A DNA stretch of 64,000 bases from the NCBI GenBank assembly GCA_001972305.1, contig BDDD01001802.1, forward strand, positions 131,554 through 195,553, read 5' to 3'. This DNA comes from Cephalotus follicularis (lineage: Eukaryota > Streptophyta > Magnoliopsida > Oxalidales > Cephalotaceae). The notes beneath the pieces are model-generated. The model was given only the letters and a program-made list of their open reading frames with translations, did not search any database and was not told the DNA's origin. How positions within the stretch are numbered: the first letter of the stretch is position 1; every line of letters begins with the position of its first letter. Both the position numbers and the translations under genes were made by a program. Below, piece after piece: positions 92 through 60,355 of this stretch.

Positions 92-307
92 CAGTCGGCT
101 GTTTTTCCATAACAGTCGGCTGGATCCTTGAGTCAGTCGACTGTTCTTCCCCAACAGTAGGCTTGTTCATCACGAGTATTCGGCAGTCGGGTGTCTTTCT
201 TCGACAGTCGACTGTCCTGGGTAAAAGCGCATGCACAGTCGCCTATTCTTACATGACAGTCGACTGGATGATCGAGTAGTCGACTGTTTTTCTTAAACAG
301 TCGGCTG
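92..307. repeat. 21-bp-phased TCGA palindrome array in LTR D, distal cluster
   Basis: Ten copies of a degenerate 10-mer (consensus CAGTCGACTG or CAGTCGGCTG) start at 92, 113, 134, 155, 184, 205, 236, 257, 277 and 298. The steps are 21, 21, 21, 29, 21, 31, 21, 20 and 21 bp. The 11-bp spacers share no obvious sequence, so this is not a simple tandem duplication. In LTR orientation the cluster lies about 1.15-1.36 kb from the LTR start. Confidence 0.85.
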
Positions 308-1138
308 TTCTGGATTGGACAGTACCAGTAATTCACTTCTAAATCCATTCAACAAGCAATTGAAACCATTCCACGCGTATTCATATCACAGAATATCATC
401 AGTAATCATATCATGGTCTAAAACACAACTCAGTTCATGCATTGTTCTCCGTTTTCATTCATAATTCAAGTGATATTCAAACATGGTATTGCATGAAAAC
501 CAATCCATCACTTCATCCAAAACTCAGTGTGCATGTTAGGTTATTTATTAACATTTACCACAACATCAATACAGAAATCCATAACCAGCAACTTCACCAT
601 TCATTTATAACCCCATTACTCATAACTTAAAATGCATGCAGAGAATTCTCTACTATTTTCCCCTACCTTTGATTTCAAGTTAGAAATTGAAAGTCCACCT
701 CTTTGTGTCTCCTTTCCAGCGTCTTTGAGCCTCCCAGTAGCTCCAAGGATAGTCCAGTAGGTTCCAACAGAGCTCCAAGCTTGACAATGAGGAATCCTCT
801 CAATTCTCACTATTTTCTCTCTCAAATTCTCACTGTTTCTCTCTCAATTTCTCTGGTTCTTTCTTATCAGATTGTAGGGTGAGAGAGACAAAGGGAAGGA
901 AGCATTTATGCAGTCTTCTCCCATCAGCCCGTTTTTGCATGGCACCTTGAGCCTTCTCTCACATTTACACTTGCATGCACACACACTTGTCATTCTTTCT
1001 CTTCCTTTCTATCCTTGCAGGTTCTGGCGTGGTGGTGCATGCTCAACACGTTTTATTTATCATCAGATGGCGCCTGCAAGATGCTTTATCAGTGGCTGCA
1101 TGTGATCTCGTCACATGCAAATGAAACAGAGCACAATC

Positions 1139-1289
1139 CAGTAGGCTACCTTTCCCTGGCAGTCGGCTGTTCGCCTGACAATCTGTTGCCAAGTGTCACG
1201 ACAATTGGCCAGTCGACTGGTTCATCCCACCAGTCGACTACTTCCACACGTAGCCATCCAGTCGGCTGGTCTTCTGTGCCAGTCGACTG
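1139..1289. repeat. 21-bp-phased TCGA palindrome array in LTR D, proximal cluster
   Basis: Copies start at 1139, 1160, 1210, 1231, 1259 and 1280 (steps 21, 50, 21, 28, 21). Three are CAGTCGACTG or differ by one base. In LTR orientation the cluster lies about 160-310 bp from the LTR start, the same offset as the first cluster in LTRs C, H, I and J. Confidence 0.82.
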
Positions 1290-1451
1290 CCTCCAGTAAA
1301 CTTACCAAGTAATTACGCTTCTAAGTACATAATTGACTTAATAGCGACATCGACATCATCAATTTCGGAGAAAACAATCATTTTATTAATCCCACAAATA
1401 AAGCAAATTTACATTGCGAAATTACAACACGTGAAAATTTCGGGCGTTACA

Positions 1452-1566
1452 CTGACATTTCAGAAACATCAATTTGAACAGGATTGTGTAGGCCATCAAC
1501 TTGTGGTTCTTTAGATCGTTCATCTAGCTCTATCATACTACCACTACTATCTTCCAACAGGAAGTC
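1452..1566 (-). pseudogene. Copia element B: integrase-RT hinge fragment
   Basis: Read on the minus strand, this short piece translates as an acidic linker containing LLEDSSGSMIELDE and PVQIDVSEMS. That fits the region between integrase and reverse transcriptase in Ty1/copia polyproteins. It continues the open frame that ends at 8972 (FVARHANFLEKDL), from which it is separated by insertion of element A. It is cut at 1451 by LTR D, so RT and RNase H of this copy lie left of the window. Confidence 0.72.
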
Positions 1567-2646
1567 TGTAATACACCATTTGTCTGTGAGTTTATTTTTG
1601 GGCTTTTAATTCGATTTGTAGGCTGTCTATTTTGATTGTGGTCCTTGTGGTTTGGGTTGACTGATACCAGCCTTGGGCCTTTTGGGTATTTGTTAGACAG
1701 TGTATATGAATAAGTAAAATTGATTTTATTTTATTTTAATTAGTTTATAAATTAGTTTTATTATAAAATTATTATTTAAAACTAAATTCTTTTAAATTAA
1801 TTCTTCTTTCTCAATCCTATCTACCTCACTCGTGTATGTCTCTCTCTTTCTCTCCTTATCTCATCGAATCTGTCCCTCGTTCCCTCAAATTCTCCCAAAA
1901 ATCTCTCCACTTTTCCTTATCCCTTCTGATTTTGTTTCTCCTTTTTTTGTTTAAGAATGCCTTTGTCCATTGTTTTTGCATCATCTCTTTTTCTTGCGCC
2001 TGGTCATCGCCGAACCTGTAAGACTTGGGAACATGTTTTGTTCTTCAAGCTTTTTGCTTCATCCAAACCAGGTTTGTGCTTTATGATTCTGCTGTTAGAT
2101 GATTTAGTTTTGTAGTATACTCAGTGAAGAAGCTTTGAATCCGTATGTTCTTTCCTTCTCTTTTCCTTTGGAACAGCCGTTGTAAGTCTTGGAAAATTGT
2201 TATGTTCATTCTACGGTTTTGCATCACCATTGCAGGTTAGTCTCTGGTTTAGCAGTGATGGTTTGTTTTTGTTTTTGTTACAAACCCGTTTTCATGTTCA
2301 TATATGCTGTTAGTATGTCATTTTGATTCCTGTTACTCTATGCCTTGCCATTGTTTCTGAGTATGCTAAACAGCCTTTAGGTGTCTTGTATAGGTAGTAA
2401 TTTGGTTTTGATATCTTATAGTGGCATTTTGACAGTAAATTGGATTATATATGTATGAGTCACTCTTTCTCTCTTTAAAGTTTAAAGATTGTCTACGTAC
2501 TCCCTTATAATTCAATGTTCTTTTACTATTTTAATACCTTATAGAGTCTCTTTTAAATGGTTATGATCCTCTGGAAATGTGATATCGAGGTTTTTGATAG
2601 AAAAATTCATAGGATTGTTAGATTTTTGGTGTTCTGTTGTCCAGAA

Positions 2647-2829
2647 CAGTCACCTGTTTCCATAAACAGTCGGCTGTTAGGCTATGTGTAGTCGGCTGTC
2701 TTCCTGATTAGTCACTGCTATGCCTTGCACAGTCGTTTGGACCCCTGTACCAGTCGACTGGCTGCAGTCCTATTTGTGTAGTTGGCTGCCATGTGGGGCA
2801 GTCGACTGCCAGGCTTTAACAGTGGGCTG
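2647..2829. repeat. 21-bp-phased TCGA palindrome array, LTR A (5')
   Basis: Nine degenerate 10-mers start at 2647, 2667, 2689, 2709, 2730, 2751, 2779, 2799 and 2820 (steps 20, 22, 20, 21, 21, 28, 20, 21). Exact CAGTCGACTG occurs at 2751. The order of 21-bp steps with one 28-bp step matches the arrays in both LTRs of element E. Confidence 0.87.
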
Positions 2830-2880
2830 GTCAGTCTAGGAAAATTATGTTTTCAAGTTTCCTTGTCTGTTTCTTCTTCT

Positions 2881-2968
2881 GTTGAATCGGGGTCTGGTTT
2901 AAACACCATTATGATTCTGATTCTGTTGAATCGGGGTCTGGTTTAAACACCGTTATGATTCTGATTTT
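2881..2968. repeat. 44-bp tandem duplication in 5' LTR of A
   Basis: Two near-identical 44-bp units start at 2881 and 2925 (GTTGAATCGGGGTCTGG...). The 3' LTR carries one unit only (about 7371-7415), so the duplication arose after insertion. Confidence 0.85.
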
Positions 2969-3676
2969 AATGTCCGTAATTATTTTAAGTCCTTATATGA
3001 ATGATTTTATATTTTATAGATTTTTTGTTCTACCGAAGTGCAGTTTAGAAATTCATAAAGTTATTTCTGTGATTGCATAAGGTGCAGATTCTTCCCTACT
3101 TGGTTATCTTCGATTGGTTTTAATTGAATAAAACTTGTTTTATTGTTTAATGAAATAAGTACATAGTATTCTTCGCTTTTATTGAAATGAATTCAATGTT
3201 GTACGGATCTTCTTTTCTTGATACACTTTTAGTGTTTCCATTAGAGTATAAACATTGTTTTGGAAGTACAGGTATTCCTCGTTTTTGTCTATTCCTGGTT
3301 TTATTTGAAATTGATTTAATATCGTTTTTGTTACAGACTTTCGTATATGACATTTTTCTTTTGGTTCATGAATATGTACGGATTTTGTTATCAGATGTTT
3401 GTTTCAATTCTTATAAAATCTATTTATTACTAAAGTTTAATATTACCGATTTTATAAATTTAGTATGACTTTCACTATCGTAAGAATGCTAAACGAGTAT
3501 GACTCTCACTTACGAAAGTATACTGATTTTGAACGTGACTTTCACTTTATGAAGTATGTTAACTTTGAGATACAAATATGATTATGATTTCAGATATTTT
3601 CAGAATTATTTAGAAAATCTTTTTATGTTTTAAAATTGTTTTAGAATTAAACAATATTTTACAGAGATATTTCCTA

Positions 3677-3695
3677 CCTATGGAGGTACCATAGG
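3677..3695 (+). promoter_or_regulatory. Conserved LTR hairpin CCTATGG-N5-CCATAGG
   Basis: A perfect 7-bp inverted repeat with a 5-base loop. Element E has the same stem with a different 7-base loop (31526-31546 and 37945-37965). In the 3' LTR of A (8120-8138) the right arm is CCGTGGG, which still pairs as RNA through two G-U wobbles. Stem kept and loop changed suggests a structured RNA or DNA element, by inference. Confidence 0.6.
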
Positions 3696-4533
3696 CATGT
3701 CGTAGGCCTAGCACGGGGACATGACAATTCTGTAGCGGTGTAATTAGACTACGACGTCTCTCATTGTTTTGATATAATGTGAATAGGATTTGGATCCCAC
3801 TTTTTATAGAGGCGTATGGGTTAACCCTAGTATTTGTTAAGGATTTGGACTTTGAGGATTCATTGTGTAGTGCCGTACACGTCATTCTGTTGGAGCATGG
3901 GGCTTTGCAAACCCCTTGCATTTATGTGTATGTATATGGACACCGGATCTCTGTTATGGGATTTTTGAAATCGGATAAAGCTATGATTTATGTTATTTGG
4001 AAATCTTGGTGTTTTATAACTATTTTAGACAAATATTCTGTTTTACTTTATGTAAAAGTATTTTTGTCTCGTTTTTCATGAGATGCATGATATTTAAAAG
4101 TTCAGGTATTTTCTATCTTTTAAATTATCGTTAACCGTTTTATGTTTCCTTATCCGTACTGAGGTTTGCGCAGCCTCGTTTTGTTTTCCATGCGGCAGGT
4201 TATCAGGAGCATCGGGGCAATGTGTGATGAGAGGTGTCTCCCTTATGTCAATGGATCATCTAGGAGTTTGATCCCACTATGCTTATGTTGTCTCATGGTC
4301 GTGTTAGGGCCTGTTTTAAGAATAATGTGATGGTTTCAGTTTATGACACTTTAGTTTATGTTAAAAGGCTTTCAAACTATGTTTTCAGATTATGAAATGA
4401 TATGCCTTAGACCACCCCGTATTTTTGAATAAATATAAGTTTATGCCTTCAGTTCATGTTTTGATATTCTTTTATGTTTAGTATTGTATTATGACCTGTA
4501 AGGGCTCTCTCCATTCGGGGGTGTTACAGATTA

Positions 4534-4546
4534 TGGTATCAGAGAG
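4534..4546 (+). promoter_or_regulatory. Primer binding site of A (tRNA-Met)
   Basis: TGGTATCAGAGAG lies five bases after the 5' LTR end. It matches the plant initiator tRNA-Met complement (TGGTATCAGAGC), the usual primer of plant gypsy and copia elements. Confidence 0.88.
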
Positions 4547-6034: not shown

Positions 6035-8971
6035 TGTAATGCCCTGTTTGTCTGTGAGTATATTTTCAGGCTTTTAATTTGTTTTGTCGGCTGTCTATTT
6101 TGATTGTGGTCTTTGTTGTTTGGGCTGACTGATACCAGCATTGGGCCTTTTGGGTATTTGTTAGACAATGTATACGAATAAGTAAAATTGATTTTTTGTA
6201 TTTTAATTAGTTTATAAATTAGTTTTATTATAAAATTATTATTTAAAACTAAATTCTTTTAAATTAATTCTTCTTTCTCACTCCTATTTACCTCAATCCC
6301 GTAAGTCTCTCTCTTTCTCTCCTTATCTCACCGAATCTGTCCCTCTTTCCCTCAAATTCTCCCAAAAATCTCTCCACTTTTCCTTATCCCTTCTGATTTT
6401 GTTTCTCCTTTTATGTTTAAGAATGCCTTTGTCCATTGTTTTTGCATCATCTCTTTTTCTTGCGCTTGGTCATCGCCGAACCTGCAAGACTTGGGAATTT
6501 GTTTTGTTCTTCGTGCTTTTTGCTTCATCAAAATCAGGTTTGTGCTTTATGATTTTGCTATTAGATGATTTAGTTTTGTAGTATACTCAGTGAACAAGCT
6601 TTGAATCCGCATGTTCTTTCCTTCTCTTTTCCTTTGGAATAGCCCTTGTAAGTCTTGGATAACTGTTGTGATCATTCTACGGTTTTGCAACACCATTGCA
6701 GGTTAGTCTCTGATTTAGCTGTGATGGTTTATTTTTGTTTTGGTTACAAATCCATTTGCATGTTCATATAGGCTGTTAGTATGTCATTTTGATTCCTATT
6801 ACTCTATGCCTTGCCATTGTGTTTGAGTATGCTAAACAGCCTCTAGGTGTCTTGTATAGGTAGTAATCTAGTTTTGATATTTGATAGTGGCATTTTGACA
6901 GTAAATTGGATTATATATGTATGAGTCACTCTTTCTCTCTTTAAAGTTTAAACATTGTATACATACTCCCTTATAATTCAGTGTTCTTTTACTGTTTTAA
7001 TACCTTATAGAGTCTCTTTCAAATGGTTATGATCCTTTGGAAATGTGAAATCCAGGTGTTTGACAGAAAAATTCATAGGATTGTTAGATTTTTGGTGTTC
7101 TGTCATCTAGAACAGTCGGCTGTTTCCATAAACAGTCGGCTGTTAGGCTATGTGTAGTCAGCTGTCTTCCTGATTAGTCGACTGCTATACCTTGCATAGT
7201 CAACTGGACCCCTGTACTAGTCAACTAGCTGCAGTCCTTCTTTTGTAGTCAGCTGGCCATGTGGTGCAGTCGAATGCAAGGCTTCAACAGTCGACTGGAG
7301 TCCTGCTACAGTTGGCTGGTCAGTCCAGGAAATTTTTGTTTTAAAGTTTCCTTGCCCGTTTGTTCTTCTGTTGAATCGGGGTCTTCTTTAAACACCATTA
7401 TGATTCTGATTTTAATATCCCTAATTGTTTTAAGTCCTTATATGAATGATTTTATATTTTATAGATTTTTTGTGCTACCGAGGTGCAGTTTAGAAATTCA
7501 TAAAGTTATTTCTGTGATCGCATAAGGTACGGATTCTTCCCTTATTGGTTATCTTCGATCGGTTTTAATTGAATAGAACCTGTTTTATTGTTTAATGAAA
7601 TAAGTATAGAGTATTCTTCGCTTTTATTGAAATGATTTCAATGCTGTATGGATCTTCTTTTCTTGATACACTCTTAGTGTTTTTATTAGAGTATAAACTT
7701 TGTTTTGGAAGTACATATATTACTCGTTTTTGGCTATTCCTGGTTTTATTTGAAATGGATTTAATATTGTTTTTGTTACGGACTTTCATATTTGACGTTG
7801 CTCTTTTGGTTCATAAATATTTACAGATTTTGTTATCAGATGTTTGTTTCGATTTTTTTAAAATATGTTTTATTACTGAAGTTTAATATTACCGGTTTTA
7901 TAAATTTAGTATGACTTTCACTATCAGAAGCATGCTAAAGTAAGACTATCACTTACGAAAGTATACTGATTTTGAATGTGACTTTCACTTTAGGAAGTAT
8001 GTTAACTTTCAGATACATATATGATTATGATTTCAGATATGTTCAAAATTGTTTAGAAAATATGTTTTTGTTTTAAAATTGTTTTAGAATTAAACAATAT
8101 TTTACAGAGATATTTCCTACCTATGGAGGTACCGTGGGCATGTCGTAGGCTTGGCACGGGGACATGACACTTCCGTAGCGGTGTGATTAGACTACGACGT
8201 CTCTCTTTGTTTTGATATCCTGTGAATAGGATTTGGATCCCACTTTTGATAGAGGCGTATGGGTTAACCCTATGATTTGTTAACGATTTGGACTTTGGGG
8301 ATTGATTGTGTAGTGCAGTACACGTCATTCCGTTGGAGCAAGTGGGCTTTGCAAACCCCTTGCATTTATGTATATGTATATGGACATCAGATCTCTGTTA
8401 TGGAATTTTAGAAATCAGATAAAGCTATGATTTATGTTATTTGGAAATCTTGGTGTTTTATAACTGTTTTAGACAAATATTCTGTTTTACTTTATGCAAA
8501 AGTATTTTTGTCTCGTTTTGCATGAGATGCATGGTATTTAAAAGTTTAGGTATTTTCTATCTTTTGACTTATCGTTTACCGTTTTATGTTTCCTTATACA
8601 TACTGAGGTTTACTCAACCGCGTTTTGTTTTCCATGTGGCAGGTTATCAGGAGCATTGGGGTAATGTGTGATGAGAGGTGTCTCCCTTATGTCTATGGAT
8701 CATCTAGGAGTTTGATCCTACTATACTTATGTTGTCTCATGGTCGTGTAGGGCCTGTTTTAAGAATAATATGATGGCTTCAGTTTATGACACTTTAGTTT
8801 ACGTTAAAAGGCTTTTAGAGTATGTTTTCAGATTATGAAATGTCATTTCTTAGACCACCACGTATTTTTGAATAAAGATAATTTTATGCCTTCAGTTCAT
8901 GTTTAGATATTGAGTTAAGTTTAGTTTTGTATTATTACCTGTAACGGCTCCCAGCATTCGGGGGTGTTACC
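6035..8971 (+). mobile_element. 3' LTR of element A
   Basis: Homologous over its whole length to 1567-4528, with many scattered substitutions and small indels, so the insertion is not recent. It starts TGTAATGCCC and ends GGTGTTACC, then TSD AAGTC. It carries one more palindrome than the 5' LTR and a single copy of the 44-bp unit. No gene is present. Confidence 0.9.
7113..7318. repeat. 21-bp-phased TCGA palindrome array, LTR A (3')
   Basis: Ten 10-mers start at 7113, 7133, 7155, 7175, 7197, 7218, 7246, 7267, 7288 and 7309 (steps 20, 22, 20, 22, 21, 28, 21, 21, 21). CAGTCGACTG is exact at 7288. Several copies are TAGTCAACTA-like, as expected from C-to-T change at the central CG. Confidence 0.87.
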
Positions 8972-10857: not shown

Positions 10858-12419
10858 TGTCACACCCCGTTATTCCGATACATTTCGACAACATAGGTGA
10901 TGATATCAGGAATAAGTAAATAATCCAGCATTCCAAATAACAATTCAAAAAAAAACCATAGCGGAAGCATTCCATAAACCGGGTTATAAAATAAAGTCAT
11001 CAACACGCAGCCCATACTACGTGCATGTACAATACCAGCAATTATCGTTATACATAAGGAAAGTAAAACAACCACACGGAGTGCGAATCGTTCATTACAA
11101 AATAAATACAACATAAGAATAACAACCTTAACTGAAATAGCAACTCTCCAAAAGCTTCAACAGCACTTCCCGTACGTCTTCGCTGAACCTGAAATTGTAG
11201 GGGGTTAGCCGTTGTCCTCACTTGGCTAAGTAGGAAGATAGTGCATGATAATTGAATCTATAGATGCAACATGTATGACATTTTATATATAAAATAGCAT
11301 TTTTAAATATTCCAATATATAAGCAATTGTGCCAAGTGGCCATAGACAGTACAATGCAAGAATACCGCATAAGGGTAAAATCAATCAATACAGTAGTTTG
11401 GGTGTTACATGTCGCTAACTCCTAGCACCAACTGTGCACCACCTATCTATCACCCTTCACTCCGAAGATGATAGATCAGGTTAGTTACTACCGGCATTAG
11501 CGGGCAGTTTAACAGTCAAGATCTGCATTGCAGACAATTTGGCTGGATACTCTAGCCAACTCCTGGCACATAGGACCACCTCCGTAGCAAGTGATGTCTC
11601 CTATCACTCGACTAACGGCAATAACATAGACAATCAATTCAGTAGTAATATTACATATATCCATAGTATGCAATATAAAAGTTGTTTTCTTTAGAAACAT
11701 TTAACAACTCAGTAATCGTACATCTCATAGGAGGAAAACGATATGCAGTCCAGTAACAGTACCTCTCATAGAAGGGAAAAACAGTAATCATTAGGTTTCA
11801 TTTGAAAATGATCGTTGAAATCATTAATTGTGCGTATAGCACTTAGTTGGTTCAATCCTTTGAAAGTAATGGAACAATAATGTTAATGAACACTCAACTA
11901 GTATGTACAAAATTGTAAAAGTAACATATACAACAAATTAATAAGGCACAATAGCAATTAGAGGATTCAATAAAGTCATTAGCATACAATAGTCATTCTT
12001 GCACAACTTCCACAAGAAGTGCATACGTTGTTTAATTTTTGAAATGTAATTATAAAAGACCAGGACTGACTGTTACAGTCATCCCATATGGAGGCAAGGT
12101 TAATTACATTCAATTTAATGCCTAAACAGAACCTATAACAGACTTTTATCCCAGGAAAGTCGACTGTTCCCAAGAACAATCGGCTGTTTTGATTGAGTAG
12201 TCGGATGTTTGTTCTTAACAGTCGACTGGTTCAATTGAGGTTTCGACTGCCATGAAGAACAATTGACTGCTTTGCCGATAAATTGGAAGGCAGTAGCAGG
12301 GTATGTATAATCCATATCCAAATAATAACACAAAAAACACATGCAATCAAACAGAAAATTAACCATACATGATATGCATATTGTATATTCAAAAACACGT
12401 AATTACCCCTACCTTATAC
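10858..12419 (-). mobile_element. Truncated 3' LTR of element C
   Basis: Aligns with 16930-18479 from TGTCACACCCCGTTATTCC up to CCTACCTTATAC. At 12420 it changes abruptly to integrase coding sequence, so the LTR start, the PPT and the chromodomain end are missing. It holds hairpin TTAGCC-N13-GGCTAA at 11205-11229 and the palindrome array. No gene is present. Confidence 0.88.
12157..12269. repeat. 21-bp-phased palindrome array, 3' LTR of C
   Basis: Copies start at 12157, 12177, 12198, 12219, 12240 and 12260 (steps 20, 21, 21, 21, 20). The sister LTR (18228-18320) has one unit fewer, a difference of one 21-bp step. Confidence 0.85.
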
Positions 12420-12423
12420 AATA

Positions 12424-13749
12424 TCAAAGGTCGTAGCTCAATATGTGAGATGGGTCAGGTACGTATTTCCGTAACATAGAGACATGAAATACGTTATGCA
12501 CATCAGACAAACTAGGCGATAGTGCAATCTGATATGCCAAATCCCCCACTCTTTCCAGGATTGCATAAGGTCCAATATACCTTGGAGCCAACTTACCCTT
12601 GAGGCCAAAATGGTGTATCCCTTTTGAATGCGAGATCTTCAGGAAAACATGATCCCCCTTCTCGAATTCTAGCTTTCTCCTCTTGCTATCGGTGTAACTC
12701 TTCTTCCAACTTTGTGCAGCTAGCAGCCTCTTCTTGATTATTTCTACTTTATCAGTAGTCTCTTGTACCAAGTCCAGTCCCAGCACTTGTCTCTCACCTA
12801 CCTCATCCCAGCAGATTGGCGATCTGTATTTTCTCCCATACAATGCTTCATAGGGAGCCATTACAATGTTGGTGTGAAATCTGATGCTGTAGGAGAACTC
12901 AATCAGTGCCAGATGATCCTCCCAACTCCCAGCAAAATCAATCATGCAAGCCCATAGCATATCGTCCAGAGTCTAAATGGTACGCCCCGACTGTCCGTCG
13001 ATCTATGGGTGGAATGCAGTGCTAAAGTTCAAGGTTGTTCCCATTGCTGCTTGGAACTTCTTCCAGAACCTTGAAGTAAATCTAGCATCTCGGTCACAGA
13101 CAATACTGACTGGCACCCCATGCAATCTCACTATCTCCCGGATATACAATCGAGCAAGATTCTCGATAGAATACGTCATGTTCATTGGAAGAAAGTGAGC
13201 AGACTTAGTAAGTCTGTCCACTGCTACCCACACTGCTTCATGCTGATTTCGTGACCTCGGTAATCCCGATATGAAGTCCATGGTCACATGCTCCCACTTC
13301 CACTCAACCACTGGTAACGATTGTAGCAGTCCCGCGGGTTTCTGATGTTCAGCCTTCACTCTCTGACAGGTCAAACATCTTGCTACGAATTCGGCAATCT
13401 CTCTTTTCATGCCACTCCACCAGTAGTCTCTTTTCAGGTCGTGCCACATATTGGAACTTCCCGGGTGAACACTGTATTTTGACTTGTGAGCTTGTTGCAG
13501 TAGTTCATTCTTGATGCTCTCATCATCCGGAACACATATCATTCCTCGGAACCTTAGTATGCCATCAGTATGAATGGAGAATTCAGAATCAGTGTCTAGG
13601 ATCTCACGAATACTCCATAACTCAGTGTCACTTACTGAGCCATCAGAATACGTTCCAAAAATTCTGGTTGTGCTCTCAGATTTGCCACAATAACTCCAAG
13701 GGAAACCATGAATGGATTCCATCTCTGAAATTCCTCCAATAGCTTCCAT
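12424..13749 (-). pseudogene. Element C integrase (truncated before chromodomain)
   Basis: Two minus-strand frames, 13749-13003 and 12960-12424, encode a gypsy integrase. They contain the HHCC zinc domain (HPGSSNMWHDLKRDYWW, CLTCQRVKAEHQ), the catalytic core with Asp in MDFISGLP and CDRDARFTSRF, and the downstream end (APYEALYGRKYRSPICWDEVGE, LAPRYIGPYAILERVGDLAY). Two stops fall between the frames at 12960-13003, both where relatives have Gln (HPQTDG, SIQTL), as from C-to-T change. The protein breaks off after DPSHILSYDL, where element I continues for about 55 residues into its chromodomain-like tail. Confidence 0.87.
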
Positions 13750-16926: not shown

Positions 16927-18227
16927 TGCTGTCACACCCCGTTATTCCAATACATTTTGACAACATATGTGGTGATATCAGGAATAAGTAAATAATCTAG
17001 CATTCCAAATAACAATTCAAAAAAAAAACCATAGCGGAAGTATTCCATAAATCTGATTATGAAATAAAGTCTTCTACACGCAGCCCATACTACGTGCATG
17101 TACAATACCAGCAATTATCCTTATACATAAGGAAAGTAAAGCAACCACACGGAGTGCGAATCGTTCCTTACAAAATAAATACAACATAAGAATAACAACC
17201 TTAACAGAAATAGCAACTCTCCAAAAGCTTCAACAGCACTTCCCGTGCGTCTTCGCTTAATATGAAATTTTAGGGGGTTAGCCGTTGTCCTCACTTGGCT
17301 AAGTAGGAAGATAATGCATGATAATTGAATCTATAGATGCAACATGTATGACGTTTTATATATAAAATAGCATTTTTAAATATTCCAATATATAAGCAAT
17401 CATGCCAAGTGGCCATAGACAGTACAATGCAAGAATACCGCACAAGGGTACAATCAATCAATACAGTAGTTTGGGTGTCACATGTCGCTAACTCCTAGCA
17501 CCAACTGTGCACCACCTATCTATCACCCTTCACTCCGAAGATGATAGATCAAGTCAGTTAATACCAGCATTAGCAGGCAGTTTAATAGTCAAAATATGCA
17601 TTGCAGACAGTTTGGGTGGATACTCTAGCCAACTCCTGGCACATCGGACCACCTCCGTAGCATTGATGTCTCCTATCACTAGACGAATGGCAATAACATA
17701 GACATTCAATTCAGTAGTAATATTACATATATCAATAGTATGCAATATAAAAGTTGTTTTCTTAGAAACATTTAACAATTCAGTAGTCGTACATCTCATA
17801 GAAGGAAAACAATATTCAGTCCAGTAAAAGAACCTCTCATAGGAGGGAAAAATAGTAATCATTCGGTTTCATTTGAAAATGATCGTTGAAATCATTAATT
17901 GTGCGTATAGCACTTAGTTGTTTCAATCCTTTGAAAGTAATGGAACAGTAGTGTTAATGAACACTCAACTAGTATGTACAAAATTGTAACAGTAGCATAT
18001 ACAACAGATTAATAAGGCACAATAGCAATTCGAGGATTCAATAAAGTCATTAGCATACCATAGTCATTCTTGCACAACTTCCACAAGAAGTGCATACGTT
18101 GTTTAATTTCTGAAATGTAATTATACAAGGCCAGGACTAACTGTTACAGTCATCCTATATGGAGGCCAGGTTAATTACATTTAATTTAATGACTAAACAG
18201 AACCTATATCAGAATTTTATCCCAGGA

Positions 18228-18320
18228 CAGTCGGCTGTTTTGGCTGAGTAGTCGGCTGTTTGCTATTAACAGTCGACTGGTTCGATTGAGAAGTCGACTG
18301 CCATGAAGAACAGTCGACTG
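18228..18320. repeat. 21-bp-phased palindrome array, 5' LTR of C (distal)
   Basis: Copies start at 18228, 18249, 18270, 18291 and 18311 (steps 21, 21, 21, 20). Three contain exact AGTCGACTG. The cluster is about 1.25-1.35 kb from the LTR start. Confidence 0.85.
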
Positions 18321-43443: not shown

Positions 43444-45722
43444 AGTTAGCAGTACAGTAAAATAACCATAGGGACATATATACAAAAATGTATGTATGCA
43501 ACAATAGTATAGTAGTAGTCCGGCCAGGGCTTCATCAATAGGCACAGTAGTGTTCGAAAAGGACTAACAAGCAGTACAGTAAGTCCACAAAGGGACCACA
43601 AACAGGTAGGCAGTAAGTGTAACACCGCCAACTCCTGGCCCCACGTTACACTCCCACTTCGGTCCCTACCCCAGGTAACCAAGCAAGACAACAGTACAGT
43701 ACAGTGAGTTACCCAGACAACTCCTGGCTCCTAGGTCAACCTTGCCACTAGCCTGCGCTGGCAGTCTCCGCCATGCAACCAGTGGCTCAAGCACAACCAT
43801 ATAAAATTCATAGAGCAAACAGTGAATAGTCATAGTAAACAGTACAGTAATGATCGTTAGATCAACAACAGGTAGTTTATTTCAAATTATTTTCGAAAAT
43901 GATATCATTTGAAATATGTATTTCTAATAGATAGAGAATACTTTAAACAATTCAGTAGTGGAAATCGCTTTCCAGTTTGTTCGAAAATAGGATATTAACA
44001 AATATATATTTTCGTACTCAAAATAGTGTATTCCGAGTTCACATATGCATTTCTAAATATGACAACTTAGAAATCATAAACGATTTATAGACAGTCAATA
44101 AACAGGCAGTAAACAGTGTATATGCAATGCATACAAATGCCCAAATGAATCCTAACAGAAGTTGGGATCGTTTCGTATCGTTATATAAGAAAACTTCCAA
44201 AAAGTACAAGAAGGCGACAAAGTCCATTATTAGGCATCGATGTCTTTGTCCCTCAGCGTCGACGCTCAAGTCCTTAGCATCAGCGCTTTCCACTATTGAA
44301 GATGTCGATGTCCATCTTTATACGCATCGACGCTCAAGGTATGTAACCTTAAACATCAGCGCATTGCTCAATTCGTCGATGCCTTAAGGTAGGAACCTTA
44401 GGCGTCGACGTATAATACGTCAATATCCAAGCAGATAACCCAAAGGAATCGATGTTCCTAAAAGGCGTCGACGTGTTTCGAGCACCAGTCGTCTTCTTCC
44501 TCATGACGTAACAAATAGTAGCTAACATAGTCCATATACATGCAGGACAACATGAAATCAAGCCATAAAACCAACATGCAGATACATATCACATACCCAG
44601 TATAACATGGCATTGACCCAGTGATAAAAAAAATAGTTCAATAATCATGTAATCTATGCACAGAACCATAGTCCAGACATGAAAATTAATCTCAAGAATA
44701 CGATTATGGATTACCCTACCTTTTTGTTCAAAGTTAGGAACTAGAAAGCCCACCTCTTTAAGTCCTAGAACCAGTCACAGCAGCTCCAAGGATTTCCCCA
44801 TTGCTGCTAGCCCACAAGCTTCAAGGCTCAAGCTCTAAATTGCTCAACAATGGTGGAGGTTCCCTTTCCTTCTCTCACTGGTTTCAAACCTTTTTCTTTT
44901 CACAAGTGTTTCAGCAGGAGAGAGGTGAAGGAGAAGGTGCTTTTAAGCTGATGGTTCCCTTCTATTTCTTCCTCCCTGCCTTGAATGCACTCTCACACCC
45001 ACACACCTGTTCTCTTTCCTTCCCCCGTTTTTGTTCTTTTCTTCCTCTGAGTTTTTGTAGGTCACATGTGTCTAGGGAACTTCCACCCCTGCATGCAATA
45101 GTTGAGCTCGTTTCTCAGCCCTTGTCTCAGCTCTCACGCCAGAGAATGCCACACTCCCTCTAACCGTCCATTGCATGCACACATGTCCCTCTCTTATTTT
45201 CACTTGTTGCATGCTATCACAGGTGTCACCCTTACCCTCACAACTTCATTCATGCAGGTCAGGGAGCCATATGCATGCTCAACACTTCCCATTTCGCGCC
45301 TCAAGGTGCCTGAAAAAGGCCCTAAATCATTTCCCTTTGCACGTTATTCTGTCAGCAGAAGAACGTGCCTCACATTCGATGTTATGCATCGACGTCGTCT
45401 TTAGACGTCGATGTATTTTCCCTTTTTACACGAGGACATCGATGTTCTCGCTTGCATCAACGTGCATGCACATGCAGTTACGTGCGTCTCTTTGTTTCAA
45501 AGGCATCGATACGTTCAAAAAGGCGTCGATGCGTTTTACCCAAAATAGCACCGTTTTACTTCAAATTGCCCTTTTAACATTTCTTTAACATTTTTTATTC
45601 CAAAATCAATATCATTAGAGTTTGGAAAACATCATCGAAGTTGGGAATTTAATTATCCTCATTAATATCACGATAAGGTTTCAAATTGAAATACTACAAT
45701 AATGAAAATCCCGGGCGTTACC
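42908..45722 (-). mobile_element. Solo LTR H (chromovirus, antisense)
   Basis: 2815 bp from TGTCACGCCCC to GGGCGTTACC with TSD GATAA at 42903-42907 and 45723-45727. There is no internal sequence, so it is a solo LTR left by recombination. Read on the minus strand, long parts align with the LTR of element I, such as the stretch around TTGTATGCATTGCATA and the CACTGTTTACT-rich part. Its palindromes are GCGTCGACGC / GCATCGATGC (44236-44410 and 45388-45531), not CAGTCGACTG. A TTAGCC..AGCTAA hairpin lies at 43309-43333 and an AT tract at 43421-43443. The frames at 43446, 44127, 44801 and 45175 are not genes. Confidence 0.92.
44236..44410. repeat. GCGTCGACGC palindrome array, solo LTR H
   Basis: Cores lie at about 44236, 44258, 44279, 44304, 44326, 44355, 44375 and 44404 (steps 22, 21, 25, 22, 29, 20, 29). 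They include GCGTCGACGC at 44256 and CATCGA forms. A looser second cluster lies at 45388-45531 (45388, 45407, 45438, 45456, 45505, 45525). Confidence 0.78.
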
Positions 45723-46334
45723 GATAATCAAAACAAGAAAGTGCAAAAACATGACACAACGCCAACGGTTTGTAAATAAACGACAGTGCTTAAGGGAAAA
45801 CCGACGAGGGCATTGGATAAAGCTTTAGCGGTTGATAGAACATAACTGGTTAAAGCGCTGACGGTCTAATGGAAAGCGTCAGCGGTTTGGACTAAGGTGT
45901 CAACGCCTAAGAGCAATGTATCAGTGGTTAGAAACAGAAGCTTTCAAGATCATTTGAGGGACACAAAGCGGCGATGCTCTGAAGTAAGCGTCAGTGCTTG
46001 AAGAAAAAGAGCAGACGCTCAGAACAAGGCATCAGCGGTTGGAGCGAGAAATTCAAATTAATATGCACAATGGTAACATAAGCATCGACACATAGTGTTA
46101 GTTTGTCGATGCTTTACGTGCGGGCAGAAATTAACTAGACCATTCTTTGAGCGTCGTTTCAATCACAACAAGTTCCAATGCAACTCCAACAGCCAAATAA
46201 CTTCATCAACGGCTAGAATAAAAAAAAGTTATATATACAAGCCAAGAATCAATATCAAAGTACTTCTTCATCAACTTACAAAGAAACATTCATCATCTTA
46301 GAAGACAAGAACATCAAGGGAGAAAACCTTTCAC

Positions 46335-46560: not shown

Positions 46561-49101
46561 TGTAACGCCCTGGATTTTCGCACGTTGTAATATTTGAATT
46601 CCAAATGTAATCTTATTATGAAATTAATGAGAAAGATGAATTTCATGGCTAATATTTTGATTCGCAAATCAAATAAAAAAACTTAGAAGTATGATTGTTG
46701 AAATATTGACGGGGACAGTCAACTGGTGCAGTAGACAAGCTGACTGGTGGACCGTTTAATGGAATAGTTGACTGGTGGGATGGACCTGCCGATTGGAGGG
46801 CTGTCGAGCCACCTGGAAAACACAGCCAAGAGGACAGCCGACTGTCAGGAAAGAACAACCGACTGGTTTATGCTCTGTTTTGTTGCATGTGATGATATCA
46901 CATGCAACGACTAACAAGGAGAAAGGATGTGCCATCTGTGCATCATGCGGCCAATGTAGAGGGAAGAGTGAACACCTATGCGCCATGCGGGTCATGGGAC
47001 AGGGAGAATCAGTCATGTGTGTGTGTGCATGCAGACATGAGAGGAGTATAGCATTTAGTGCCATGGAAACAGGTTGGAGAAAAGAGAGAGGGAACCACCT
47101 GCATAAAACGCTCTACTCTTCACCTCTCTCACCCAGTGCGTGCAAGGAAAGAAACCAGTGAGAAATTATAGAGGAAAACAGTGAGGAGTTTGGACATGAC
47201 GGGTTGGAGCTACTGGATTGGAGTTGAATCCTCTGGGGAGCTCAAAACGTCACTGTTGGAACACAAAGAGGTGGACTTACAGATTCCTAACTTTGAATCA
47301 AATGGTAGGGGAAGTTATATTTGTATTTTGAGCTCAAAGTTACTGGATGTCCTGTGATCGAATACTAGTTGTATGAACAGTGGTTTTCAACTTTTATGAC
47401 ATGGTTACTACTGGTTTTTCGTACTCCATGCTTACTGATTGAGAATCATTTGAGTTCATGTACATGCATGTTGAGTATTATCTTGGTATTGAATTGATGG
47501 ATAAAATGCATGTTTGCTGTTGTGTTCTATGAACCTTTTGAGGACTGATTGATGATATTCTATTTTGAGAATATATATGGATGCTTACAATGATCCGTTT
47601 GAGTGATATATATTGGATTGTATGTAACTAGTTTCCCATAACAGTTGACTGTCGAAGGAAGACAGCCGAATGCTCAACCAAAATAGTCGACTGTTGAAGG
47701 ATAAAAGCCGACTGCCAGATGAACAGTCGACTGGTAGAAGGAACCAGCCTACTACTCATGTACTGATCACTCAGAAACTAGTGAAGAATCCAGCCGACTG
47801 CCAAGCTGCTATTTGGGCCTCTCTTGCTTAAAGTGATGCGCGATGATCCCGACTCCGATTAGAATACATTAGAGCATATGTATGCATTGCATATGTACTG
47901 TTTACTACCTATTTATTGACTGATTATAAACTGTTATGATTTCTAGATTACTATGTTAATTAGAAAGGCATATGTGAAACTGAAAATGACTATTTTGAGT
48001 ACGAAAATATATTTGATAATAACATATTTTCGAATAATTGGGAAAGCGGTTTCCACCTACTGAACTGTTTAAAAGTATTTCATACTACTGAAAATACATA
48101 ATTCAAATGTTTATGACTTTCAAAAAATTTTGAAATGAACTGTTTGTTATTAACCCAACGATCACCACTGTACTGTCTACTGCACTGTTTACTATAATGA
48201 TTCACTGTGTTGCCCTGTGAATTTACTGTGTTTGTGTTTGAGCCGTACTAGTTGCGTGGCGGGGTCTCCTAGCGATGACTAGTGGCAGGGTTGACCTAGG
48301 GGCCAGGAGTTGGCTGGGTAACTCACTGTACTATATTGTTGTCTTGCTTCGTTGCCTAGAGACGGGACCGAAGTGGGAGTGTAACGTAGGGCCAAGAGTT
48401 GGCAGCGTTGCACATACTGCCTGCCTGTTTGTGGTCCCTTTATGGACTTGCAATACTGTTTACTGGTCCTGTTCGGACACTACTGTGCTTGTTTGACGTA
48501 GCCCTGGCCGGGCTACTACTGTACTATTCTTGCATACATATATTTTTATATATATGCCCCTACTGTTATTTTACTGTACTGCTAACTTATATATATTTCA
48601 TATATATATAAACTGGTATTTTCTACTGCACTGCATCATCTACGCATACATTTCATGACATGCATGTAATGTTGATCCCAAAGTACTCATATAACTTAGC
48701 CGAGTGAGGACGAAGGCTAACCCCTTACTTTACAGATTGATGCAGTGGATTAGCTTGGGGATCAACATGGATGAAGTACAAGTTTTTAATAATGTTTTAC
48801 AAGGGATTATGTCCCTTTGTGTGTTGTGTATCATATTTTTCCGGTTCACTAGACTTTTGATGTTATTGGATAATGTTTTATGGATCACGCTTTGTTTTGT
48901 GGGATTTTAACAACAACAAACTTGTTTGAGTAGCGTGTAGTATGGGATGCACGTTATGTGTTTTCAGCTTATGAGTTTAATGCTTCCGTAACTGATATCT
49001 TATTTGAAAAGTTTAAATTTTTATGCTATTTGCATAAACTGAATCTTAATGTTAATTGCCTTTACCACTTTTATGTGTGTTTCTGAAAACGAGGTGTGAC
49101 A
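46561..49101 (+). mobile_element. 5' LTR of element I
   Basis: 2541 bp, TGTAACGCCC...GTGTGACA. Arrays: 46716, 46737, 46765, 46786, 46835, 46856 (steps 21, 28, 21, 49, 21) and 47642, 47663, 47684, 47705, 47724, 47745, 47791. It has AATGGTAGGG at 47302-47311, two GCCA(A/G)GAGTTGGC modules near 48300-48313 and 48390-48403, AT-rich tracts near 48590-48612, and hairpin TTAGCC-N13-GGCTAA at 48696-48720. No gene; the frames at 46775, 48275, 48399 and 48704 are incidental. Confidence 0.92.
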
Positions 49102-53826: not shown

Positions 53827-56365
53827 TGTAACGCCCAGGATTTTCGCACGTTGTAATATTTGAATTCCAAATGTAATCTTGTTATTAAATTACTGAGAAA
53901 GATGAATTTCTCGGCTAATATTTTGATTTGCAAATCAAATCAAAACACTTAGAAGTATGATTGCTGAAATACTAATGGGGACAGTCGACTGGTGCAATAT
54001 ACCAGCCGACTGGAGGGCTGTCAAGCCACCTGGCAACCACAGCCAAGAGGACAGCCGACTGTCGGAAAAGAACAGCCGGCTAGTTTATGCTCTGTTTCGT
54101 TGCATATGATGATATCACATGCAACGACTGACAAGGAGAAAAGATGTGCCATCTGTGCGTCATGCGGCCAATGCAGAGGGAATAGTGAACACCTGTGCGC
54201 CATGCAGGTCATGGGACAGGGAGAATCAATCATGTGTGTGTGTGCATGTAGATATGAGAGGAGTATCCCATTTAGTGCCATGGAAACGGGTTCGAGAAAA
54301 GAGAGAGAGAACCACCTGCATAAAACGCTCTCCTCTTCACCTCTCTCACCCAGTGCGTGCAAGGAAAGAAACCAGTGAGAAATTACAGAGAAAAACAGTG
54401 AGGAATTATGAGAGAAAGATTCTCAAATTGTTGAACCAAGAGGAGTTTGGACGTGACAAGTTGGAGCTACTGGATTGGAGTTGAAGCTTCTGGGGAGCTC
54501 AAAACGTCACTGTTGGAACACAAAGAGGTGGACTTACAGATTCCTAACTTCGAATCAAACGGTAGGGGAAGGTATATTTGTATTTTGAGCTCAAAGTTAC
54601 TGGACGTCCTGTGATCAAATGGTAGTTGAATGAAATGCGATTTTCAACTTTTATGACATGGTTGCTACTAGTTCTTCGTACACCATGCTTACTGATTGAG
54701 AATCATTTGAGTTCATGTACATGCATGTTGAGTATTATCTTGGTATTGAATTGCTGGATAAAATGCATGTTTATTGTTGTGTTCTATGAACCTTTTGAGG
54801 AGTGATTGATGATATTGTGTTTTGAAAATATATATGGATGCTTGCAATGATCCGTTTGAGTGATATATATTGCATTGTATGTAACTGGTTTCCCAAGATA
54901 GTCGACTTTCGAAGGAAGACAGCCGACTGCTCAACCAAAATAGTATACTGTTGAAGGATAACAGCCGACTGCCAGATGAACAGTCGACTGGTAGAAGGAA
55001 CCATCCGACTACTCATGTACTGATCACCCAGAACAACCGACTGGTGAAGAATCTAGCCGACTGCCAAGCTGCTGTTTGGGCCTCTCAAGCTTAAAGCGAT
55101 GCGCGATGATCCCGACTCCGATTAGAATGCATTAGAGCATATGTATGCATTGCATATGTACTGTTTACTACCTGTTTATTGAGTGATTATAAACTGTTAT
55201 GATTTCTAGATTACTATGTTAATGAGAAAGGCATATGTGAAACTGAAAATGACTATTTTGAGTACGAAAATATATTTGATAATAACATATTTTTGAATAA
55301 CTGGGAAAGCGGTTTCCACCTACTAAACTGTTTAAAAGTATTTCACACTACTAAAAATACATATTTCAAATGTTTATGACTTTCAAAAAATTTGAAATGA
55401 ACTGCCTGTTATTGATCCAACGATCACCACTGTACTGTCTACTGCACTGTTTACTGTAATGATTCACTGTGTTGCTCTGTGAATTGACTGTGTTTGTGTT
55501 TGAGCCGTACTAGCTGCGTGGCAGGGACTACCAGCGATGAATAGTGGAAGGGTTGACCTAGGGGCCAGGAGGTTGCTGGGTAACTCACTGTACTGTACTG
55601 TTGTCTTGCTTGGTTGCCTGGAGAAGGGACCGTAGTGGGAGTGTAATGTGGGGCCAGGAGTTGGCGGCGTTGCACATACTGCCTGCCTATTTGTGGTCCC
55701 TTTGTGGACTTACTGTACTGTTTACTGGTCCTGTTTGGACACTACTGTGCCTGTTTGACGTAGCCCTAGTCGGGCTACTACTGTACTGTTACTGCATACA
55801 TATATTTTTATATATATGCCCCTACTGTTATTTTACTATACTGCTAACTTATATATATTTCAAATATATATATAAACTGGTATTTTCTACTGCACTGCAT
55901 CATCTACGCATACATTTCATGACATCCATGTAATGTTGATCCAGAAGTACTCTTATAACTTAGAAAAGTGAGGACAAAGGCTAACCCCCTACTTTACAGA
56001 TTGATGCGGTGCATCATCTTGGGGATCAGCATGGATGAAGTACAAGTTTTTAATAATGTTTTACCGGGGGTTATGTCCCTTTGTATGATGTGTATCGTAT
56101 TTTTCCGATTCACTAGACTTTTGATGTTATTGGATAATGTTTTATGGATCACGCGCCGTTTTGTGTGCTTTGAACAACAACGGGCTTGTTTGAGTAGCGT
56201 GTTGTATGGGATGCACGTTATGTGTTTTCAACTTATGAGTTTAATGCTTCCGCAACTGATATCGTATTTGAAAAGAGAAAATTTTTATGGTATTTGCATA
56301 AGCTGAATCTTAATGTTAATTGCCTTTACCACTTTTATGTGTGTTCCTGAAAATGGGGTGTGACA
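53827..56365 (+). mobile_element. 3' LTR of element I
   Basis: 2539 bp, aligned end to end with 46561-49101. The proximal array has copies at 53982, 54003, 54052 and 54073 and lacks a 49-bp segment present in the 5' LTR, equal to one 21-bp plus one 28-bp step. The distal array at 54899-55063 has a complete pair (55034 and 55054) that is damaged in the 5' LTR. The 5' arm of the conserved hairpin is mutated (TTAGAA) near 55960. The frames at 53992, 54119 and 55601 are not genes. Confidence 0.92.
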
Positions 56366-58328: not shown

Positions 58329-58796
58329 ACTTTGTTATTGTAGGTGTACTTGAAGTCAAAATGTCCAAGTACATTTGTTGGAGAGAAAAGCTTTTATTGA
58401 GGGGGAGGTAATGATATGAATGTTATTATTAGAATTTGTTTACACTTAATACATTAATCCTTTCTTTAACATTATTCCAACTTTCAATTATTATCACTTT
58501 ATCTTTCAAAAGGTATCACTTTTATATTGTCAAATTGGTATCAAATTTGTAAACTTAAAATTATTCTCTCTGATGCTAACAAAAAGGGGGAGAAAGCATA
58601 TGTTAAGGGGGAGTTGATAAAAGTAGTATTGGTATAATGACCATGCTGAAAAATATCTTAATGCATATATTAAGGGCGAGCTTAACTAAGGGGGAGTTTG
58701 TCATTTTTTAATTTTTGATATATGTTAAATTTCTATTATCTTTATTGTTGATGCATTTTATTGTAAATGTTTTGTCATCATCAAAGAGGGGGAGAT
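58329..58796 (+). promoter_or_regulatory. Multiplied polypurine tracts, G unit 2
   Basis: Non-coding, with AGGGGGAG tracts near 58400, 58585, 58607, 58688 and 58787, and one mutated copy (AGGGCGAG) near 58672. The arrangement matches unit 1. Confidence 0.85.
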
Positions 58797-59484
58797 TGTT
58801 GGGTTTTATCTAACAATCCTAGTTTTGATGATAACAAAGCAACTAACGTGTTTGCTAATATGAAAGAATGAATAAAGATAATAAAAACAACAAAGTGCAG
58901 AAACAGGACAAAGCACCGATGGTTTGTAAATAAACGACAGCGCTTAAAGGAAAACCGACGAGGGCATTGGATAAAGCTTTAGCGGTTGATAGAACAAAAC
59001 TGGTTAAAGCGCTGATGGTCTAATGGAAAGCGTCAGCGGTTTGGACTAAGGCATCAACGCCTACGAGCAATGTACCAGTGGTTAAAAATAGAAGCATTCA
59101 AGATCATTTGAGGGACTCAAAGCGGCGACACTCTGAAATTAGCGTCAGTGCTTGAAGCAAAAGAGCAGACGCTCAAAATAAGGCCTCAGCGGTTGGAGCG
59201 AGAAATTCAAATTAATATGCACAACGGTAACATAAGGGTCGACGCTTAGTATTACACTGTCGACGCTTTGCGCGCGGGCAGAAATTAACTGGACCATTCT
59301 TTGAGCACCGTTTCAATCACAACAAGTTCTAATGCAACGGCCAAATAACTTCACCAATGGCTAGAATAAAAAAAAAAGCTATATATACAAGCCAAGAATC
59401 AACATCAAAGTACTTCTTCATCAACTTACAAAGAAACCGTCATCATCTTAGAAGAGAAGAACATCAAGGGAGAAAAGCTTCCAC

Positions 59485-59520
<36 letters not shown>

Positions 59521-60147
59521 AAGCTTGTGTCAAGCACTTTAGCATTTTCATATCAAACCTTTGAGAGGTTATTTGTAAATACAAAACCATCCATTACAAA
59601 TTTTTCATTGTAAAAAGGGGAGTGAACGCTTAGTCAGATTATCAAGGGATGTGAACTCTTAGTAGGATTATCCCAGGGTGTGAACCCGGTGGGGAGTGAA
59701 CTCTTGTAAGGTGTTTCTTTGATTTGCACCCGTAACCCAAAATCAAAGGGTACTAGCGGTTTCTAGTGGAATCTCAAGGATACAAATCTTTCATTGTAAA
59801 AAGGGGAGTGAACCCTTAGTAAGATTATCCCGGGGTGTGAACCCGGTGGGAAGTGAACTCTTGTAAGGTGTTTCTTTGATTTGCACCCGTAACCCAAAAT
59901 CAAAGGGTACTAGTGGTTTCTAGTCGAATCTCAAGGATTTACCTTGGCAAAAGTGGACGTAGGCAAGAGCTAGCCGAACCACTATAAACTCCGTTTGCAA
60001 TCTTCTAACTCTATCTCTTTACTTAATATTGTTTGTTTATTTGCATTGTTATTAATTGTTCTCGTATGCTTGTTTCTATTCATAGTGTAATTTTTATTTT
60101 CCGCAAACCACAAATATCTCTTTAGAGGTGGCCATTAAGGACCTACA
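58797..60147 (+). mobile_element. LTR3 of array G
   Basis: 1351 bp, TGTTGGGTTTTATC...GGACCTACA. It is longer than LTR1 because of a 186-bp tandem duplication (units from 59595 and 59781). It has palindrome-like cores at 58910-59280, including GGTCGACGC near 59228 and GTCGACGC near 59260, and an AT tract at about 59488-59518. No gene is present. Confidence 0.88.
59595..59966. repeat. 186-bp tandem duplication in LTR3
   Basis: TACAAATTTTTCATTGTAAA at 59595 recurs, with one change, at 59781, and the following sequence (minisatellite, CACCCGTAACCC, CAAAGGGTACTAG) is repeated. LTR1 and LTR2 have one copy. Confidence 0.88.
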
Positions 60148-60355
60148 CCTGGCGTCGACGCTATTTCATGGCATCAAAGCTTAAGGCAATTCCTTAACGT
60201 CATATTTTGTTCCTTGGCGTCGACACTTTGCTTCATAGCGTCGACGATTTAGGCCATTTCATTATTTCAATTCAATACAACATTCTTTACTCAAAATTCA
60301 ACACCACAAGTTGGACATTCATGTTTTTCATTAATTCATGATTCAAGACATTACA
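60148..60355 (-). mobile_element. 3' LTR of element J, fragment 3 (LTR start)
   Basis: The right edge GACATTACA at 60355 is TGTAATGTC on the minus strand, the start of the J LTR, next to a PPT. It carries GCGTCGACGC-type palindromes at about 60153, 60222 and 60238. It joins fragment 2 across array G, possibly with some LTR sequence lost, because no TSD is visible. Confidence 0.83.

Follow-up and report, generated by a model that had tools for sequence, protein, structure and literature searches.

Arrays of short TCGA-centered near-palindromes, set mostly 21 bp apart, were found in LTR (long terminal repeat) retrotransposons of Cephalotus follicularis, in a 64,000-nucleotide stretch (contig BDDD01001802.1; C1802:131554-195553) that is called the window below. 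Two 10-bp words make up these arrays: CAGYCGACTG (P1) occurs in Ty3-type elements, and RCRTCGAYGY (P2) in elements that are of Ty1 type or unassigned. We consider that the arrays are likely LTR enhancers on which a predicted host DNA-binding factor would dock, raising transcription from a TATA box downstream (probability of about 0.55). Four features pointed to putative protein docking in U3: the strict spacing, the near-symmetric 10-bp footprint, words that are kept from one insertion to another but not inside a single one, and the position of two arrays (that of C and the second of D) upstream of a TATA-like box. The source genome searched comprised 1,577,397,061 bases in 9,746 contigs. Self-comparison indicated that nested LTR retrotransposons make up the window, four of which (A, C, E, and D) have two LTRs, and that positions 1–1567 hold a minus-strand LTR related to that of D (the D-like LTR).

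The arrays of the window were stepped at 20–22 bp, plus a step of 27–29 bp. Exact, one-mismatch and two-mismatch matches to CAGTCGACTG or GCRTCGAYGC numbered 30, 61, and 107, against 0.2, 2.1, and 45.6 expected from 10 order-2 Markov simulations, a count that is by itself partly circular since the words were taken from the same window. A word-free test was applied to the 16 palindromic 4-mer cores, and only TCGA showed a step peak at 19–22 bp; ATAT and TATA also had an arm excess, without a 19–22 bp peak above their own background. At least two of three arm pairs accompanied 86 of 211 TCGA sites (33.0 expected), and all three accompanied 31 (3.3 expected). Sixteen TCGA pairs lay at a lag of 19–22 bp, compared with 2.6 ± 1.6 (maximum 9) in 2000 jitters, and the 21-bp peak thus held against randomized controls. 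In 20 stretches of 10 kb chosen blind to the motif, CAGTCGACTG ranked third among palindromic 10-mers, behind two AT repeats, and P1 words were present in three of them.

Genome-wide, the exact words CAGTCGACTG (P1) and GCGTCGACGC (P2) were counted with the reversed pattern as control; these repeat counts may be lower bounds. P1 formed 38,210 pairs at a step of 19–23 bp (control 136), 34 at 10–18 bp (control 1), and 18,562 at 24–41 bp (control 52). The last set included 7,682 pairs at 27–28 bp (control 13), and among the places listed, a small part of that set, all lay at 27–28 or 39–41 bp. The P1 clusters of the window and the fetched loci, tallied with L002–L004 omitted as overlapping copies of one locus, had steps of 21 (49 cases), 20 (12), 22 (4), 19 (2), and 18 bp (1), and longer steps of 28 (5) and 27 bp (2); the other 25 measured 41–92 bp, across decayed units or longer gaps. 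P2 formed 3,529 exact pairs at 19–23 bp (control 4) and 6,613 degenerate triples (control 4), and its phasing is documented by the window arrays, the locus L038 and these pair and triple counts, the short-step control being for P1 only. Locus L038 carried a 16-unit P2 array inside an LTR-like repeat. Another copy of this repeat, 5.8 kb off and 94.5% identical, had 13 units, and an A-like element lay between the two copies. Seventeen of these 29 units read RCGTCGATGT, and one leaned the opposite way. Window statistics and genome-wide pair counts therefore confirmed the first-pass annotation, which had described TCGA palindrome arrays with steps of 20–22 and 28–29 bp.

The two words were kept apart. 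A single CAGTCGACTG was found next to a GCGTCGACGC at 19–23 bp in the whole genome (exact words only), vs. 38,210 and 3,529 pairs within the classes, which indicated class separation. The earlier proposal of palindromes shared across Ty3 and Ty1 elements was thus right in that both carry TCGA arrays, but their words are separate and the P1 arrays are mostly directional. A tentative extension, possible but doubtful, is that Ty3 and Ty1 elements use private operator codes (CAGYCGACTG and RCRTCGAYGY) on a shared 21-bp geometry, read by an undescribed protein class that would assemble directionally, the 28-bp break serving a second factor.

The asymmetry of P1 is a change of T to C at position 4, and it mostly pointed in the same direction within an array. 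Same-direction pairs of CAGCCGACTG numbered 16,265 + 16,373 = 32,638 genome-wide (controls 55 and 37), and the opposed order CAGCCGACTG then CAGTCGGCTG was found at 376 places (control 0), where random direction would give half of the same-way count, about 16,300. In addition, CAGCCGGCTG followed CAGCCGACTG 615 + 607 = 1,222 times. Seventeen arrays were examined for orientation (13 from the window, one from L001, two from L006, and one from L019): 14 could be oriented, two had a single asymmetric unit, and that of L019 was mixed. The 113 units of the 14 arrays, oriented by positions 4 and 7 themselves and counted in both LTRs of an element, had A2 in 111, T9 in 112, A7 in 106, G3 in 105, and C8 in 104, and position 4 was C in 60 or T in 49.

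The 28-bp step often enclosed CACG. Among the places listed, CACG occurred within the 27–28 bp step at 36 of 50 places and in 26 of 39 distinct spacers, with related copies counted repeatedly; in the typed distinct spacers, it was present in 16 of 22 at the 27–28 bp step vs. none of 31 at the 21-bp step. CACG lay 4–9 bases away from either word in 5,996 strand-matches genome-wide (4 and 8 in the controls), which correspond to 2,998 to 5,996 places, vs. 7,682 pairs, because CACGTG counts on both strands. By our own arithmetic, chance would put CACG at that placement in roughly 5% of cases with even base use. In the window, three of eight steps of the 27–29 bp type contained it. CACG inside many 28-bp steps may be a partner site. 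Because 28 bp does not make an integral number of helical turns, the idea that the palindromes lie on one face of the helix was upheld within 21-bp runs but not across the longer step.

Between insertions, the P1 words differed less than their surroundings. The fraction of differing bases was 0.19–0.21 in words, 0.48–0.49 in spacers and 0.45–0.49 in flanks for A and E; 0.20–0.23, 0.48–0.50, and 0.43–0.44 for A and L006a; 0.12–0.14, 0.33–0.34, and 0.21 for E and L006a; 0.16–0.19, 0.42–0.52, and 0.39–0.56 for D and the D-like LTR; and 0.07, 0.39, and 0.40 for L001 and L006b. Within one insertion, the relation was reversed: in A, C, D, and E, each of the five arrays had cores that differed more between paired LTRs (0.07–0.17) than spacers did (0.01–0.12). 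The claim that the 10-mers are kept while the spacers are not was therefore borne out between insertions (P1) but not between the LTRs of one insertion, where the proposed comparison of core and spacer gave the opposite outcome, apparently for a neutral reason. Six of the ten base pairs of a P1 word are symmetric CG or CHG positions (CAG, CG, and CTG; H stands for A, C, or T), and this richness predicts more change in cores between the LTRs of one insertion.

Over the whole LTRs of A, C, D, and E, changes were counted at 44 of 333 core, 43 of 567 spacer and 503 of 8536 remaining positions. CHG sites changed at 24 of 128 positions in cores vs. 106 of 561 in the rest of the LTR, and CG sites at 11 of 61 vs. 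103 of 446; the values for CHH (5 of 16 vs. 231 of 2184) and A/T (4 of 128 vs. 63 of 5345) were higher in cores, in small numbers. We infer that methylation drives the decay of the words after insertion. Words conserved between insertions and decayed afterward indicated that selection kept the P1 words while the elements transposed, not later. For P2, the results varied between copies: those at 45723 and 58877 differed at 7 of 40 core, 11 of 101 spacer and 49 of 694 other positions, and those at 39579 and 58877 at 16 of 60, 14 of 121, and 63 of 631; the copies compared may be repeat units rather than LTRs of one insertion.

The same figures bear on a methylation or anti-silencing platform, in which the symmetric CG and CHG sites collected in the words would promote or counter chromatin silencing, the reader perhaps being a protein tuned to the element. 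Short element-specific words present in many copies and read by a protein are known from VANDAL/VANC anti-silencing in Arabidopsis, where the VANDALs are DNA transposons. The six methylatable positions per P1 word suit such a platform, as does the similar CG and CHG change in cores and elsewhere in the LTR. However, any sequence rich in CG and CHG would serve, yet A2, T9, and A7 were the best kept, and the strict step is left unexplained. Since core CG and CHG sites changed at about the rate seen elsewhere, the methylatable richness looks like a consequence of conservation, not its cause. We regard the platform as distinctly unlikely. A pure nucleosome-positioning device, which had also been suggested, was unsupported, the 10-bp sequence itself being conserved.

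It could also be argued that the arrays are old 21-bp minisatellites, the 10-mers being alike by chance or through local homogenization. The prevailing direction of P1 fits this origin, as do the internal block repeats of L038 and a weak consensus in the oriented spacers. For the 11-position spacers (51 distinct), this consensus amounted to 2.84 bits, compared with 0.60 after shuffling and 1.35 with random flips; for the 10-position spacers (n = 24), it amounted to 4.54 bits (0.40 and 2.56). Neighboring whole units, however, were not alike: spacers differed by 0.668 between adjacent units (41 pairs), 0.619 within the same array (168) and 0.699 between arrays (2,069), while the word positions were alike in 85 to 112 of 113 units, position 4 excepted. 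If units were homogenized in place, cores should also stay alike once inserted, but the cores of A, C, D, and E outdiverged their spacers. Slippage is also unlikely to produce two vocabularies with the same step and the same TCGA center. A minisatellite origin therefore appeared very improbable, in agreement with the first-pass view that the arrays are unlike a decaying minisatellite.

A further alternative, proposed before for the LTR palindromes of maize Sireviruses, is that the palindromes act in RNA: they might form hairpins that feed silencing by small RNAs, or serve as signals for dimerization or packaging. Folding energy was below that of dinucleotide shuffles in 10 of 10 arrays on both strands (z −2.05 to −8.87), and the maize palindromes are reported as hotspots of small-RNA mapping (PMC5311732). 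However, such folding is expected of any palindrome array, and hairpins need no strict step. The CCGA sense units of C, D, and the D-like LTR would, by base-pairing rules, leave two C-A mismatches per two-unit stem. The antisense strand folded better by z in 7 of 10 arrays, the sense strand being better in A and the E 5′ array. A role in RNA is thus rather improbable.

The favored enhancer reading draws on the position of the arrays within their elements. Element A (5′ LTR 1567..4528 and 3′ LTR 6035..8971, plus strand) has a Ty3-type gag and a primer-binding-site (PBS)-like site at 4534. Its P1 arrays lie at 2647..2829, where the asymmetric units read CAGTCGGCTG in sense, and at 7113..7318, with 10 units at steps of 20, 22, 20, 22, 21, 28, 21, 21, and 21 bp. 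Element E is also of Ty3 type (5′ LTR 29898..32390, 3′ LTR 36302..38803, plus strand; PBS-like site 32396), with eight units each at 30847..31010, one step being 28 bp, and at 37251..37414. Element D, of the same type (5′ LTR 46561..49101, 3′ LTR 53827..56365, plus strand; PBS-like site 49106), has two P1 arrays per LTR, the first at 46716..46865 and 53982..54082, and the second at 47642..47800 and 54899..55063. In its 5′ LTR, the TATA-like TATATATATAAA stands at an LTR offset of about 2044. Element C lies on the minus strand between a left (3′) LTR at 10858..12425 and a right (5′) LTR at 16930..18476, both with an uncertain outer limit, and has a PBS-like site at 16926 on the minus strand and P1 arrays at 12157..12269 and 18228..18320. 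The array of C and the second array of D are located 800–900 bp upstream of the TATA-like box. In the D-like LTR, of which 658–1326 is homologous to the inverted D LTR, a minus-strand array of 10 units at 92..307 reads CAGYCGACTG in sense and includes one 29-bp step with CACG; a second array at 1139..1289 (minus) has a 28-bp step with CACG. An undelimited element contributes another P1 array, at 19321..19427 and also with CACG in a 28-bp step. The unit count per array is thus 5–6 in C and 8–10 in A and E, and one array of the D-like LTR has 10.

P2 arrays occupy other parts of the window. That at 21182..21507 (minus) lies inward of a PBS-like site at 21638 (minus) by about 130–460 bp and is thus probably in a leader. 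The array at 39431..39961 (plus) stands in an LTR or leader, with a Ty1-type gag (40819–41397, PF14223) downstream, and those at 45855..46112 and 59009..59266 (plus) belong to the second Ty1-type unit and the third Ty1-type repeat; some P2 arrays thus adjoin copia-type gag. The remaining arrays lie at 29121..29506 (69% related to 44233–44464), 44234..44474 (10 units), 45386..45532 (six units), and 60152..60247 (four units), and two P2-like units at a step of 22 bp were found at both 23442..23473 and 27758..27789, the latter decayed.

Palindrome clusters in retrotransposon LTRs were reported earlier for Sireviruses (Bousios 2010; PMC2829016), as the first-pass annotation had noted. These repeated motif (RM) boxes number 8–32 copies, mostly in the upper half of the LTR and upstream of the TATA box; the word differs by element, and the motifs were tied to stress factors via a motif database. 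Two of the 13 are TCGA-centered, CGGTCGACCG in a Vitis Sirevirus and ACAATCGATTGT in Tnd-1, and the statement that no such core was known thus did not hold. Our arrays resemble them as clustered short LTR palindromes whose word differs with the element, with at least eight units in some arrays but 5–6 in C, and with a clear TATA-like box downstream in C and D. However, the RM boxes were described as specific to Sireviruses (Ty1/copia) and absent from the classic retrotransposons compared, whereas the P1 carriers have Ty3-type domains. A CGG-CCG signature is given for 12 of the 13, the TCGA-centered Tnd-1 being the exception, and neither CAGYCGACTG nor RCRTCGAYGY has it. In section 9 of that paper, neither a fixed step nor a direction nor a partner site is reported; our arrays have a 21-bp step and mostly point one way, and many of the 28-bp steps enclose CACG. 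What is new beyond the RM boxes is therefore the Ty3-type carriers, the fixed step, the prevailing direction and the frequent partner site. Among the literature matches listed, in which subscription journals were little covered, no account was seen of such arrays being directional or phased at 21 bp.

With regard to the factor, the enhancer reading holds that it would dock on each word, side by side, at a step of two helical turns, and that the docked factor would raise transcription from the TATA box downstream. With its near symmetry, the footprint CAG-Y-CG-A-CTG would suit a dimer or a pair of contacts close together, with C or T tolerated in one half, and a partner factor may sit at the CACG enclosed by the 28-bp steps. 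The arrays probably grow through copying of unit blocks; the spacers would then drift, and the words would be kept by selection on copies that still transpose. We infer from the sequence that a protein may bind, that it may be a host factor and that binding may activate. Enhancer repeats of about 21 bp that lie upstream of a promoter and are bound by activators are known from the human T-cell leukemia virus 1 (HTLV-1) LTR and simian virus 40 (SV40). Those are animal viruses with about three copies and other binding words, and no relationship is claimed.

One named candidate is a DREB/CBF-type AP2/ERF factor, for which the arrays would be stress-inducible C-repeat enhancers, with CACG as a putative partner site similar to an abscisic acid-responsive element (ABRE) or a NAC site. 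The loose C-repeat core of barley, (G/a)(C/t)CGAC (PMC3602543, PMC3349671), is present as GYCGAC in P1 and as RTCGAC in most P2 forms, and RYCGAC occurs in at least one direction in intact P1 and P2 words, ATCGAT forms of P2 excepted; the oriented units have Y at position 4 and A at position 7. An association with plant LTRs is reported for DREB1D sites (PMC11656987), and one of the DREB1A consensus A/GCCGACNT with stress-responsive maize transposable elements (PMC4287451). However, the CCGA units of P1 read GCCGACTG, which departs from A/GCCGACNT, and the conserved word is 10 bp long and near-symmetric, compared with a hexamer. The best conserved A2 and T9 fall outside that hexamer, which weakened DREB as the sole reader. 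Moreover, exact P1 and P2 words are unmixed, though the hexamer alone might permit mixing. A DREB factor is therefore unlikely to be the binder.

Several observations weigh against the enhancer reading itself. No described factor that recognizes this site turned up, and the two departures from the C-repeat just described, in A2 and T9 and in the A/GCCGACNT consensus, count here as well. Of the elements, C and D alone had a clear TATA-like box downstream, the first array of D being as much as 1.7 kb upstream of it, and the P2 array at 21182–21507 is apparently in a leader. Direction relative to transcription varied, with CCGA in sense in C, D, and the D-like LTR and TCGG in sense in A. Directions were mixed in 3 of 15 clusters with at least two asymmetric units (L019 twice and L020 once), drawn from 22 listed in the window and the fetched loci. 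The genome-wide direction count covers one opposed arrangement, CAGTCGGCTG then CAGCCGACTG being outside it, and direction could be a mere relic of direct duplication. In the comparison between insertions, selecting core columns for their resemblance to the word tilts the result toward core identity, and E and L006a had flanks that differed less (0.21) than their spacers (0.33). In the P2 pair of L038, the cores did not change faster (5 of 180 in cores, 7 of 356 in spacers and 59 of 1035 in the rest). Even so, of the functions first proposed, protein binding sites remained the best-supported reading, on core conservation, spacing and the TATA placement in C and D.

The protein domains agreed with the element types. 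Retrotrans_gag was matched by frames of A and E; RVP_2, RVT_1, and RT_RNaseH by frames of C, D, and E; Integrase_H2C2 in C and E; SH3_Tf2-1 in C; and the copia-type gag PF14223 by frames 40819–41397 and 57061–57804. The first 11 protein matches to the reverse transcriptase of E were from Tanacetum, Helianthus, and Mikania, and the 12th was from Solanum. A protein record named Bifidobacterium longum (P0049) codes a plant-like reverse transcriptase and is probably contamination. The internal part of A (4529–6034) is only 1.5 kb long and has a gag match, with no pol-matching frame seen. Ty1-type units follow one another at 39407–60147 in the order LTR-gag-LTR-gag-LTR, with about 3.3 kb between repeats when nested insertions are discounted, and D (46561–56365) sits within the second unit. 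At 28540–28759, a 144-bp stretch recurs at an offset of 76 bp with 87% identity.

Outside the plant, viral contigs searched with the P1 pair gave no relatives, and those searched with the reverse transcriptase of E gave four stretches, none confirmed. In prokaryote genomes (257 Gb), the P1 pair was found in 13 stretches, which was taken as chance level. Pairs of CAGTCGACTG at a step of 21 bp were present on three contigs (L031, L034, and L036) of the Myxococcales metagenome-assembled genome CANJCO, possibly an unrelated dispersed repeat. Four Sporosarcina records (L025, L030, L032, and L037) each had one CAGTCGACTG pair, perhaps at one shared locus.

The contrast of selection before insertion and decay after it may help to distinguish functional LTR motifs from relics. 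If the enhancer reading is right, many retrotransposons of this genome would be controlled through one geometric code, and how unrelated elements reach the same kind of control would become testable. The approximately 38,000 paired sites could then help to name a plant DNA-binding factor.

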